Source: Pseudobdellovibrionaceae bacterium (lineage in GTDB: Bacteria > Bdellovibrionota > Bdellovibrionia > Bdellovibrionales > Bdellovibrionaceae). From it: 64,000 nucleotides of DNA. This document shows positions 6,604 to 17,171 of this stretch, piece after piece (within the stretch, counting starts at the first letter, position 1; each line of letters begins with the position of its first letter). The notes below the pieces were generated by a model that was given only the letters and a program-made list of their open reading frames with translations, did no database searches and was not told where the DNA came from. A program made the position numbers and the translations under genes. The stretch covers positions 2,636,565 through 2,700,564 of the forward strand of contig JAHBUV010000001.1 of NCBI GenBank assembly GCA_019637915.1. The letters run 5' to 3'.

Positions 6604-7194
6604 ATGAACGAATCTGTAAAACTAAAACTTAGAAAACTACCGAAGGCTATCGCGGAGCTTTCTCACTCGAATCAATTTTTGAAAATGTCGGCGTTTTCCG
6701 CATACCTCATTTGCGGTCTGCTAGTGACGCTCCTCTTTTACCAAGCGATCAAACCCACGGCGGTTTTAACGCTTGCACCAGATGGCTCTTACTATCAAGA
6801 GGCACCGAAGCCCGATCCGAAAATCGAGATCGAGCGAGCTGTGCGTGAATACCTGAAGTATCGCTACAACTGGACACCGAAGACAGTTGCCACCCAAGTT
6901 GGAAAAGCCGGAGACTTTATTCTGTCTTCGACTAAGCGAGCCTTTGACGGTTCCATGCAAAACGTCATTCGCTTTTCTGTAGATAAGATCGTCGCACAAC
7001 GGGCTTACCCTGTGGAAATCCGAGTGGACTTGAAGAAAGGCATTGCCATCATCGAGGGGGATCGAATCACCTCCATTCAGGGCCTCAAGGCTGCGGGCGA
7101 TCTTCGCTTGGAGCTTGGTTTTGAATCCGGCCCGCGCACGGAGCAAAACCCGTGGGGCGTGTATATCTCGAAAGAAAAAGAATACTCTCCTTAA
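6604..7194 (+). CDS. virB8: VirB8/TrbF-like assembly factor
   Basis: A 196-aa protein with a short cytoplasmic N-terminus, one membrane segment (about residues 26-46) and a periplasmic domain of about 130 residues, the VirB8/TrbF layout. AAAAAAGGAA lies before the ATG. It is the last gene before the arsenic operon, whose arsC converges on it with a 4-base overlap of the two stop codons. In the normal order virB9 should follow at once; here it is separated by about 2.4 kb of opposite-strand genes. Confidence 0.85.
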
Positions 7195-7607
7195 AGAAGG
7201 TTGTGTTCTTTTCCGAAGTCCATGAGCTTGGATCGGATTGAATCTCTGGCTTGGCAAAATGCTGATTCCTTTTCTGGATCTGCAACAGATGCGGGATCAG
7301 GAATAGGCCAGTGAATCTTTTTGGCCTTGGAAACCATCGTGGGACAGACCTCTTCGGCGCAGAGGGTAATCACATAGTCAATGGAAGCCAGAAACTTCGG
7401 CGAAAGTCGGTCGTAGGATTTTGAAAAATTCCTTGAAATGTCGATACCATCTTCCTTCAGAACTTCGATGGCCCAAGGCTGAACTTTTCCAGAAGGAACA
7501 GAGCCAGCACTTTCGATGTGAGCTTTATCGCCGAACATTTCTTTCGCAAGACCTTCTGCGATCTGGCTTCTTGCTGAATTTGCAACGCATAAGAAAAGGA
7601 TATTCAT
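7191..7607 (-). CDS. arsC: Arsenate reductase, thioredoxin-linked (LMW phosphatase fold)
   Basis: Reduces arsenate to arsenite in the cytoplasm so that the Acr3 pump can export it. The 138-aa protein has the phosphatase-like loop CVANSARS with Cys7 and Arg13, and two resolving cysteines at 83 and 88 (CAEEVCPT), as in the thioredoxin-coupled LMW-phosphatase class and unlike the glutaredoxin class. It is the last gene of the operon and starts inside the acr3 stop (ATGA overlap). Confidence 0.95.
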
Positions 7608-8656
7608 ATTAGAGCCTCCTTTGAGTGGAAGAAGTGACGCCGAATATAGAGCGATACGCTGACAAGAGAAATAAGAACTGGAACTTCGACGAGAGGGCCA
7701 ATGACGGCGGCAAAAGCGGCTCCGTGATTAATCCCGAACGTCGCAACGGCTACCGCAATCGCTAATTCAAAGTTGTTGGACGCTGCTGTAAATGAAAGTG
7801 TAGCCGATTGACCGTAGTTGGCTCCGGCCTTTTTGCTCATAAAGAATGAAAACAGGAACATCAAGACGAAGTAGATTACGAGAGGGATAGCGATTCTCAA
7901 AACATCCATTGGAAGTTGGACGATTTGTTCACCCTTCAGGGAGAACATTAAGACAATCGTAAACAAGAGCGCAAGAAGAGTAATTGGCCCGATCCTGGGA
8001 AGAAAAGTGTCGTCATACCATTTTGCACCAAACTTCGGTCTTAGTACTTTCCTGGTGATGTATCCTGCGATGAACGGCACTCCGAGATAGAGAAAAACGG
8101 CTTTCGCTACGTCGGCTATTGAGAGGCCAATTTCAACACTCGTGAGTCCAAACCATTTGGGCAGGATAGAAAGAAAAAACCATGCGTAGATGGGAAAGAA
8201 AAGCACTTGAAAAATGGAGTTGAAAGCAACGAGGCCCGCGCAATACTCGCGGTTTCCGTCTGCCAAATCGTTCCAGACCAGTACCATTGCAATACAACGG
8301 GCAAGGCCAATGAGGATCAGCCCGACCATGTAGTCCGGTTTGTCAGGTAGGAAGATGATGGCGAGAGCAAACATCAAGAGAGGCCCGATAATCCAATTTT
8401 GTACTAAGGAAAGAAGGAGGACTTTTTTATTCAGAAAAACCCGTCCGATCTCTTCATATTTTACCTTGGCTAAAGGGGGATACATCATCAGGATCAGGCC
8501 GAAGGCAATGGGGATCGAAGTTGATCCCACGCTCATTTTTCCGAGGATTGAAACGATTCCTGGATAGATAAATCCTAATGCTATGCCGAAAAACATCGCT
8601 AGGAAAATCCATCCAGTGAGGTATCGGTCAAGAAATGAGAGGCGTTTGGATTCCAT
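7604..8656 (-). CDS. acr3: Arsenite efflux permease Acr3
   Basis: Exports arsenite across the inner membrane. The 350-aa protein has about ten hydrophobic segments and the family signatures: the Cys of [14 protein letters not shown] in the fourth segment and a membrane Glu in PLVEVPVLI near the C-terminus. Start ATG 8656 overlaps the stop of arsI (TGATG), giving translational coupling; two in-frame ATGs 9 and 24 bases upstream are less likely. arsC follows with an ATGA overlap. Confidence 0.95.
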
Positions 8657-9084
8657 CAGCAACATCCCGATGTGGAGCAAGATTTTTGTGATTTAGGCGG
8701 TTCGGCGGCTTCGGTCGGTAGCTGTTCGTGAACAAAGAAGACTTCCCACGAATTGCCATCGGGGTCCTTGAACCAAACCTTGTCTTGAATCGCAAAGCAG
8801 CAGTTGGTTTCTTCTTCGGTGAGAGTTTCAACGCCCTTTGCTTCTAGCTCTTGTTTCCATTTGGAAACCTCTTCAGAGGATTTGACTTCAATTCCGAGAT
8901 GGTTCACGCGACTAAGAAGCCGACCTTCTTTCGTTGCCAGCATTGAAAAATTGAGCGCGGGGTTCGCAAGATCGAACTTTGCGTAGGTATCGGTCTGCTT
9001 TTGCGGGGGTACGCCGAACACGTTTTGATAAAATGCGACTGATTTTTTTACGTCGGTTACGTTCATAGATACATGCGCTCTCAT
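8656..9084 (-). CDS. arsI: ArsI-like C-As lyase (vicinal oxygen chelate fold)
   Basis: Predicted Fe(II)-dependent dioxygenase that cleaves the carbon-arsenic bond of trivalent organoarsenicals such as methylarsenite. The 142-aa protein starts with a glyoxalase-type domain and shows the expected metal ligands His4, His62 and Glu114, plus the vicinal pair Cys95-Cys96 in [12 protein letters not shown] that binds the substrate arsenic in known ArsI. The C-terminus is Cys-rich (SCSTSGCC). Start ATG 9084 has a GGGAG site 7 bases upstream. The related CadI proteins look similar; the operon context favours ArsI. Confidence 0.88.
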
Positions 9085-9097
9085 TTGTGACTCCCTT

Positions 9098-9505
9098 TTA
9101 AGTACATTTGCCGTCGAAGCAATCAATAATCCGGCAGCAAGCAACCGCGCTGCGACTTTCGGAACAGGCTTTTTCAAGTTGTCGGACTGACGATTTCATT
9201 CGATTCAAGTCTCTTATTTTTTGATCTATCTCACTGATTTTTTCTTCCGCGAGAACGCGAACGTCCTCACAGGTTGCTTTGGGATCGGAGTTCAGATCGA
9301 GAAGGTCTTTGACCTCTTTCAATGTGAAGCCGAGCTCCTGCGCTCGTTTGATGAAGCGAATTTTGCGAGCTTCATCTTCCGAGTAAGTACGAAACCCATC
9401 TGAGGCTTTTTTCTTTGGTTGTTTGATGAGTCCTTTTCGCTCGTAGAAGCGAACAGTCTCAACGCCAACTCCTGCTTGTTTTGCAATCTTCCCAATAGTC
9501 ATCAT
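9098..9505 (-). CDS. merR: MerR-type metalloregulator of the arsenic operon
   Basis: A 135-aa dimeric DNA-twisting activator. The N-terminus is a MerR winged helix (TVRFYERKGLI), followed by a long dimer helix and a Cys-rich end. Cys79, Cys114 and Cys123 have spacings of 35 and 9, identical to the mercury-binding Cys82, Cys117 and Cys126 of Hg(II) MerR; Cys124, 129 and 134 are extra. It is first in its own operon, 13 bases ahead of arsI. No ribosome site precedes either ATG (9505 or 9502), and the predicted transcription start nearly coincides with it, so the message may be leaderless. Whether it senses Hg(II), As(III) or both is not visible. Confidence 0.88.
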   Translation of the reverse strand: MMTIGKIAKQAGVGVETVRFYERKGLIKQPKKKASDGFRTYSEDEARKIRFIKRAQELGFTLKEVKDLLDLNSDPKATCEDVRVLAEEKISEIDQKIRDLNRMKSSVRQLEKACSESRSAVACCRIIDCFDGKCT

Positions 9506-9511
9506 GGGATC

Positions 9512-9543
9512 ATCTTAAACTCCGTACCTTAGTACGGAGTCAA
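9512..9543 (-). promoter_or_regulatory. MerR operator in a long-spacer promoter
   Basis: On the minus strand TTGACT (9538-9543) and TAAGAT (9512-9517) are separated by 20 bp, longer than the normal 17, the signature of MerR-activated promoters. The spacer holds a perfect dyad, ACTCCGTAC (9519-9527) and GTACGGAGT (9532-9540) around four bases. As far as I recall, this is the dyad of mer operators in Tn501/Tn21-type elements. It directs merR-arsI-acr3-arsC. Confidence 0.9.
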
Positions 9544-9603
9544 TAGGTTGAACAAATAACTGAGAACATTAGGTTTTTTACGCATTTAGCCAAAGGAGGT
9601 TAA

Positions 9604-10305
9604 GTGAAAACCCTTATTTTACTGCTTCTGCTCCAGCCTCTCAGCACTTGGGCCAGAGTGCGAACGGTCGAAGTTAAGAAAGATCAGATCGTCACGGTCA
9701 GGACGGCACTTGGAGTCGCAACGATTATTCAAGTGCCGGATCGACCGAACAGCCTCGTGGTTGGCGATCAATCTGCGTTTAAAGTTGAGTATCTGGATCA
9801 GGCCATCACGATTAAACCCCTTCACGGAAGTGCGAGAAGCAATCTGTATATCTACACCGATTATGGACGCTTTAACGTGCAACTCGTGAGCGGGCCGGAG
9901 ATTTCTGCAGATTACGTCATCTATCTTGAAAGCCCACAAGAGAAAGTGAAGAGTTCCGCGATTGGGTGGCGTAACTACCGCAACCACCTCAAAAACGAGG
10001 TATTAGTTTTTGAAACCAAGCGGCTCGCGAATACGGTTGACGGCGTTCTCTTGATCGAGTTTGAGGTCAGGTCAGAAGTGAGAGAGAAGTTTCGGCCTGA
10101 TTGGTTGTGGCTTACTCAAAGCGGAATCACAAGACCCATTCACAGTCTTGCGCTTTCAGGGCAAGACTTGGGCGGTGGCCGATCCATCAAGGGCGTGATG
10201 CAAGTTCTAAAGAGCGACGCATCCACAGCGGAACCTCTGCGGATTGAGTTGAGGCGAAAGAAAACCTCGTATCTCACGATCCCCAAGGGGGCCGCATGGA
10301 AGTAG
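9604..10305 (+). CDS. virB9: VirB9/TrbG-like outer membrane complex protein
   Basis: A 233-aa periplasmic protein with a signal peptide (cleavage near WA, residue 17) and beta-rich N- and C-terminal domains, including YIYTDYGRFNV-type strands. VirB9/TrbG proteins join VirB10 and VirB7 in the outer membrane core complex. The GTG start is set by AAAGGAGG at 9592-9599. The 3' end overlaps virB10 by 10 bases. It lies just behind the arsenic operon promoter region, facing away from it. Confidence 0.82.
   Translation: MKTLILLLLLQPLSTWARVRTVEVKKDQIVTVRTALGVATIIQVPDRPNSLVVGDQSAFKVEYLDQAITIKPLHGSARSNLYIYTDYGRFNVQLVSGPEISADYVIYLESPQEKVKSSAIGWRNYRNHLKNEVLVFETKRLANTVDGVLLIEFEVRSEVREKFRPDWLWLTQSGITRPIHSLALSGQDLGGGRSIKGVMQVLKSDASTAEPLRIELRRKKTSYLTIPKGAAWK

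Positions 10306-15281: not shown

Positions 15282-15292
<11 letters not shown>
15050..15292 (+). CDS. Small basic protein upstream of recombinase, 80 aa
   Basis: Not recognised. It is Arg/Lys-rich, with a central heptad-like helix (IENLRVQLIPVQKEKADLD) and a basic end (KRGRPKKTEEG) that resembles an AT-hook core, GRP. It overlaps the Xre gene at its start and the recombinase at its end, so it may be a recombination directionality or accessory factor; that is inference from position only. Confidence 0.6.

Positions 15293-17171
<1,879 letters not shown>

Follow-up and report, generated by a model that had tools for sequence, protein, structure and literature searches.

The textbook controller of arsenic operons is ArsR. 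In the MerR family, the same dimer represses and activates its promoter, through DNA distortion. With regard to metalloid binding, the ArsR-family repressor AfArsR holds As(III) as AsS3 by means of three cysteines (PMC11212059). Among the MerR-type metal sensors, PbrR of C. metallidurans carries C79, C114 and C123, and depends on C14, C79 and C134 (PMC3431237). Proteobacterial mer operators have the consensus palindrome TCCGTAC-N4-GTACGGA, and some mer loci are known to carry mixed sites with a 20-bp spacer (PMC1526738). The string 'arsen' occurs nowhere in the text of a review on MerR (PMC9909328), and another paper, PMC4486848, lists As(III) under ArsR and nowhere else. A MerR-type arsenic regulator was not found in open-licence papers, which is not proof of its absence from the literature.

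The window, that is, the whole stretch of 64 kb analysed here, contains a compact minus-strand operon with the gene order merR-arsI-acr3-arsC. The first gene (9098-9505, minus strand) codes for a MerR-family regulator of 135 residues, identified by its open reading frame, Pfam and NCBIfam matches and predicted fold. It is followed by genes for an ArsI/CadI-family protein of the C-As lyase type, harbouring the vicinal Cys pair NCC (8656-9084, minus strand; NF041414, 150.2 bits for a cut-off of 116), for an Acr3 arsenite efflux transporter (7604-8662, minus strand; TIGR00832, 443.8 bits for a cut-off of 282.8), and for ArsC, an arsenate reductase of the LMW-phosphatase type (7191-7607, minus strand). 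The arsI-acr3-arsC assignment of the initial annotation is thus borne out, with ArsI and Acr3 above the cut-offs and the ArsC-type model TIGR02691 as the best NCBIfam match of the third protein, albeit below its cut-off (103.4 versus 174.3 bits), and with Pfam LMWPc above its own. This ArsC is a putative divergent thioredoxin-type reductase, scoring below the cut-off for pI258 ArsC. Its second Cys pair is four residues apart (CAEEVC), versus six in the ArsC of another locus, L025 (CDHAHENC). As also stated in the initial annotation, merT, merP and merA are absent from the 64-kb window; a whole-genome search for MerT (PF02411) gave no match either, but its control was silent too, so that the search is uninformative. 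Considering the promoter geometry, gene context and conservation observed, we think it probable that the regulator is an activator sensing trivalent arsenic (As(III), possibly Sb(III) or methylarsenite) and switching on its own merR-arsI-acr3-arsC operon.

The operon lies antiparallel between two genes of a conjugation element. Compared with seven related conjugative elements, which match the window up to position 7185 and again from 9643, the arsenic genes occupy an insert at 7186-9642, and this comparison identifies them as cargo at a variable site of the element. The junction is flanked by a gene that ends at 7194 and a VirB9-like gene at 9604. It comprises about 100 bp in five of the seven elements (L259, L260, L261, L263 and L264), a Pycsar cyclase/TIR-effector pair in L258, and an uncharacterised protein of 255 residues in L262. 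Further along, a large serine recombinase open reading frame (15282-17171) overlaps a tRNA-Pro(tgg) gene (17021-17096) on the opposite strand, and immediately past this tRNA gene the G+C content goes up from 0.50 to 0.60; this region is probably the end and attachment site of the conjugative element.

The genome also encodes three ArsR-family proteins scoring above the cut-off, which makes co-regulation of the operon possible. One of them, located 18 kb upstream of the operon (L238), carries a VCLCEF (CLC) motif, is encoded beside outer-membrane-efflux-like and CDF-like genes, and may be the island's second metal or metalloid regulator. Such proteins might control the arsenic genes in trans, with the MerR protein regulating only itself. 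However, none of the three ArsR genes adjoins ars genes within its 3-kb locus; merR and arsI are separated by 13 bp, and acr3 and arsC come next, each overlapping the end of the gene before it, so that a further promoter would hardly fit inside the operon; and the MerR-first gene order is conserved among the arsenic-linked loci described below. Control in trans by an ArsR is therefore scarcely credible.

In the Pfam search, the regulator displays MerR domains only, namely PF13411 (64.1 bits) and PF09278 (76.2 bits), both above their gathering scores, that is, the combination of MerR HTH and MerR-DNA-bind domains of the metal-sensing MerR family, and the ArsR/SmtB domain HTH_5 (PF01022) is absent. 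Its best NCBIfam match is the Hg MerR model TIGR02051, yet with 136.8 bits it remains below the cut-off of 150.85, as it does with the Tn501-type model NF010315 (106.8 for 261 bits) and the CadR/PbrR model TIGR02047 (100.9 for 151.45 bits). Tn21 MerR, by contrast, exceeds the cut-off of both TIGR02051 (183.7) and NF010315 (311.8). The predicted fold (mean pLDDT 90.5), modelled as a single chain and hence informative up to, but excluding, inter-subunit metal geometry, resembles the structures of CadR, PbrR691, CueR and MerR, with no single metal favoured.

According to its translation, the regulator possesses cysteines at positions 79, 114, 123, 124, 129 and 134. The spacing of Cys79, Cys114 and Cys123 is indeed that of residues 82, 117 and 126 of Tn501 MerR, and C123 lines up with C126 when the two proteins are aligned without gaps; on these grounds, among others, the regulator had been called mercury-type. 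This label is not supported. PbrR691 displays the same C-x34-C-x8-C arrangement, for which reason the spacing was rejected as a diagnosis of Hg(II), and because PbrR, too, has C79, C114 and C123, it is to be seen as a mark of the metal-sensing MerR family and not of mercury. Furthermore, the protein is below both Hg-MerR cut-offs, and the operator palindrome is not diagnostic for mercury either, since it marks the whole arsenic-linked class.

On the minus strand, the promoter reads TTGACT-CCGTACTAAGGTACGGAGTT-TAAGAT, with the -35 element TTGACT at 9538-9543 and the -10 element TAAGAT at 9512-9517, six nucleotides before the merR ATG. As the initial annotation had recognised, the 20-bp spacer holds a dyad, ACTCCGTAC-N4-GTACGGAGT (9519-9540, minus strand), which proved to be a perfect 9-4-9 repeat beginning at the end of the -35 element and continuing through the spacer. 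A palindrome in a spacer of 19 or 20 bp is the arrangement of metal-sensing MerR promoters. The exact dyad ACTCCGTACCTTAGTACGGAGT is the sole match within the 64 kb at up to three mismatches, with none of 100 shuffled sequences giving one, and CCGTAC-N4-GTACGG at up to one mismatch is found at a single site in the 3.3-Mb genome. Given this uniqueness, the predicted regulon consists of its own operon alone. A MerR-type regulator, and not ArsR, thus very probably drives the operon by way of this 20-bp-spacer promoter, in line with the earlier proposal.

The operator and the 20-bp spacing are both preserved among the relatives of the regulator. The 26-mer TTGACTCCGTACYATRGTACGGAGTG is matched at up to six mismatches by 64 of the 68 arsenic-linked promoters, the best of 1360 shuffled copies having nine, although the consensus was derived from these same loci so that the count describes conservation and is no test of a pattern set beforehand. 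For 57 of the 68 loci, the 26-mer ends 11-13 nucleotides before the ATG, which places the end of the -10 box 5-7 nucleotides before it, and transcription is accordingly predicted to begin at the start codon. For the window, the spacing would set the start of the merR transcript at about 9505 and yield a leaderless mRNA. The 6-nt leader GATCCC is devoid of a Shine-Dalgarno sequence, and SD-like sites precede arsI (AAAGGGAG) and arsC (AAAGGAGG). A leader of 17-21 nucleotides with a purine-rich, SD-like stretch is present in five loci (L099, L101, L119, L120 and L139), as expected if the other loci are leaderless. Some mer-type MerR genes of the phylum have short leaders as well, which are therefore not peculiar to arsenic operons.

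The closest proteins first found (50-55% identity) come from Bacteriovoracaceae and related bins, each encoded before arsenic genes, which differ from one relative to another (ArsC-Acr3, ArsI-ArsC-Acr3, aquaporin-ArsC or ArsH). The nearest relatives share 58-64% identity with the regulator and head other arsenic operons. A profile built from nine sequences (the window protein, seven relatives and a protein of the NT-25 plasmid) was searched against 369 genomes of Bdellovibrionota, a phylum of predatory bacteria, and scored 166 bits or more in 74 of them, belonging to ten family groups; the genes around the matches were identified by comparison with a set of reference proteins. Among the distinct clade proteins, 69 of 78 are encoded directly before arsenic genes, versus none of 109 other MerRs (Fisher p 1e-41, a value that is overstated as the rows are related, and that is descriptive only). 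The regulator of the window agrees with this arsenic-linked clade in its position, downstream ars genes, TTGACTCCGTACYATRGTACGGAGTG-type promoter and C79/C114/C129, and belongs to a widespread, apparently undescribed MerR class heading arsenic operons across Bdellovibrionota. No experiment showing an As(III) response by any member of the clade was found in the open-licence literature.

For the 69 arsenic-linked members, 22 arrangements were listed, a few of them cut by the edge of the locus. The partners, which vary independently, are ArsC (61), Acr3 (51), ArsI (24), ArsH (17), an aquaporin (10), and, in single cases, ArsM and ArsD-ArsA; the ArsM, ArsD, ArsA and ArsH partners are above the cut-offs of curated models. 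At one locus (L110), a MerR of this class shortened to 99 residues, with the metal-binding end lost, directly precedes genes for an ArsJ-associated GAPDH and ArsJ, and represents either a decayed regulator or an assembly error. In some nine members of the clade, the operon headed by the MerR is of the MerC-like/thioredoxin or P-ATPase kind and not an ars operon. A sub-branch of the clade (L124, L125, L127, L129, L131, L132, L134, L137 and L142) precedes genes for a MerC-domain membrane protein and a small thioredoxin-like protein, mostly with the variant half-site TTTACTCCGTAGT and often with Ser in place of C129.

Beyond the phylum, about 970 genomes (an alphaproteobacterial class, a broader proteobacterial sample, a Bacteroidota sample, and the phylum of BMS3Bbin03) gave matches of at most about 161 bits, none of them before ars genes; a spread of the arsenic-linked class to these groups thus finds no support. 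The plasmid of the arsenite oxidiser NT-25 (L034, 3013-6262) carries genes for a MerR, a Bcr/CflA-type MFS transporter, ArsR and ArsC. Its MerR was rejected as a member of the class, since the tree places it apart from the clade and its locus lacks the operator, and its association with arsenic genes is possibly a separate, independent case.

Cysteine conservation distinguishes the arsenic-linked members from the 36 mer-linked MerRs. In the former, C79 is present in 66 of the 69 proteins, C114 in 68 and C129, within the motif [DE]CF, in 65, while the classical position of the third Hg ligand (C124 in the alignment) is Cys in 41, the remaining 28 having Y, F, V or H there. In the latter, C79 and C114 are found in all 36, C124 in 34 and C129 in six only. 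The four arsenic-linked members without C129 retain C124. The earlier proposal of C123 as the third ligand does not fit this pattern, since that residue is a Cys in just five of the 69 members, versus 65 for C129. The simplest inference is that the metalloid site would comprise C79', C114 and a third thiol provided by C129 or C124. Arsenic sensing by the regulator, as initially suggested, is very probable.

A sensor with broad specificity for thiophilic metals (Hg, Pb, Cd and As), or a true Hg(II) sensor running arsenic genes with a ligand specificity that never changed, would account for a Cys trio and a palindrome that are those of Hg MerR (PMC1526738), for TIGR02051 MerR being the best, if subthreshold, NCBIfam match, and for the sub-branch heading MerC-like genes. 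We regard this as unlikely, because nearly all members have arsenic genes behind them, in numerous arrangements, with merT, merP or merA beside none of the 78, and because 28 of the 69 arsenic-linked proteins have replaced the classical third mercury cysteine while keeping C129.

The phylogeny foreseen in the initial annotation, both as a check and as a possible refutation of its reading, by and large places the regulator in an arsenic-linked MerR class, which is defined by gene context and not by biochemistry. In a tree of 176 proteins, the arsenic-linked rows, with the exception of the NT-25 plasmid protein, form one group (SH-aLRT 86), which includes a few MerC-like and P-ATPase rows as well, and three label changes are needed on this tree versus 51.6 after shuffling. 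In a bootstrap tree of 80 proteins, the regulator groups (99/88) with Bdellovibrionaceae-type proteins heading MerR-Acr3-ArsH-ArsC operons (L063, L121 and L133), the first of which is 64% identical to it, and this group is nested among 19 arsenic-linked rows (96/75). Tn501/Tn21 MerR, PbrR691/CadR, ZntR and CueR all stand elsewhere in the 80-protein tree, and the regulator is separate from Tn501/Tn21 MerR in both trees. The AU test, meant to exclude a mer grouping, did not do so: a tree constrained to join the regulator with eight Tn501-type MerRs is worse by 20 log units but is not rejected (p=0.15). With 141 columns, the deep order of the two arsenic-linked branches and the mer branches is not settled.

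The initial annotation had envisaged that this individual regulator was recruited, perhaps recently, from a mer operon. The likeness of its dyad to the Tn501/Tn21 mer operators and the outcome of the AU test speak for such an origin. Nevertheless, its nearest kin are other ars-operon MerRs within a clade of the same phylum, with 64% identity to arsenic-linked proteins of Bdellovibrio (genus inferred) versus no more than about 52% to plasmid homologues, and the operator is common to the clade, so that no borrowing of a mer site has to be assumed. One-off recruitment was rejected once the genes neighbouring the relatives had been read as arsenic genes; recruitment from mer, already mostly contradicted, is thus very improbable.

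For the arsenic-responsive activator that we favour, the apo-dimer would sit on the dyad within the overlong 20-bp spacer and keep the promoter off. The metalloid would then be bound by cysteines of both subunits, namely C79 of one and C114 together with C129 and/or C124 of the other, and, by homology with other MerR proteins, its binding would untwist the DNA and bring the -35 and -10 elements into register. With the -10 element abutting the ATG, merR would be translated from a leaderless mRNA, and arsI and arsC from their Shine-Dalgarno sites. The activator would control its own expression within a regulon of a single operon, which the conjugative element carries as cargo. On balance, we lean towards a dedicated arsenic-sensing MerR class that would be the main switch of ars operons in Bdellovibrionota, with Cys79-Cys114-Cys129 replacing the mercury trio, a promoter abutting the start codon, and a leaderless sensor mRNA. 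If true, this would be a second solution to arsenic regulation beside ArsR. The phylum-wide class would supply some 70 natural variants that differ in their third thiol ligand but keep arsenic as their target, making the choice of metal or metalloid by MerR proteins directly testable, and would offer activator-type arsenic sensors for biosensing.

Among known systems, the MerC-like/thioredoxin MerRs of the phylum (L124, L129, L131, L132, L134 and L137) share with the regulator the clade, the 20-bp spacer architecture and C79/C114/C124, but differ by their half-site type, the frequent Ser at position 129 and their non-arsenic targets. PbrR/PbrR691, responding to Pb(II), and CadR, responding to Cd(II), have the MerR fold in common with it; PbrR691 has identical Cys spacing, and C134 is present in the window protein too. 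However, the latter is on a separate branch, below the TIGR02047 cut-off, and has another operator and other targets. The Hg(II)-responsive MerR of Tn501/Tn21 is alike in fold, HTH, C79/C114/C123 spacing and the TCCGTAC-N4-GTACGGA palindrome within an overlong spacer. This spacer measures 20 bp in the window and 19 bp in Tn501/Tn21, and the window regulator heads its own operon whereas theirs is divergent; it targets arsenic genes, has C129 as a conserved residue, and scores below the NCBIfam cut-offs. Finally, ArsR-family repressors such as AfArsR have the same target genes and presumed ligand. The CCRIIDC motif, found in the window protein's own branch, recalls the As(III) site NCCHGTRDC of AfArsR (PMC11212059), a resemblance only and not evidence. 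The folds are unrelated, and, in contrast to ArsR, which represses and then releases its promoter, MerR activates while bound.
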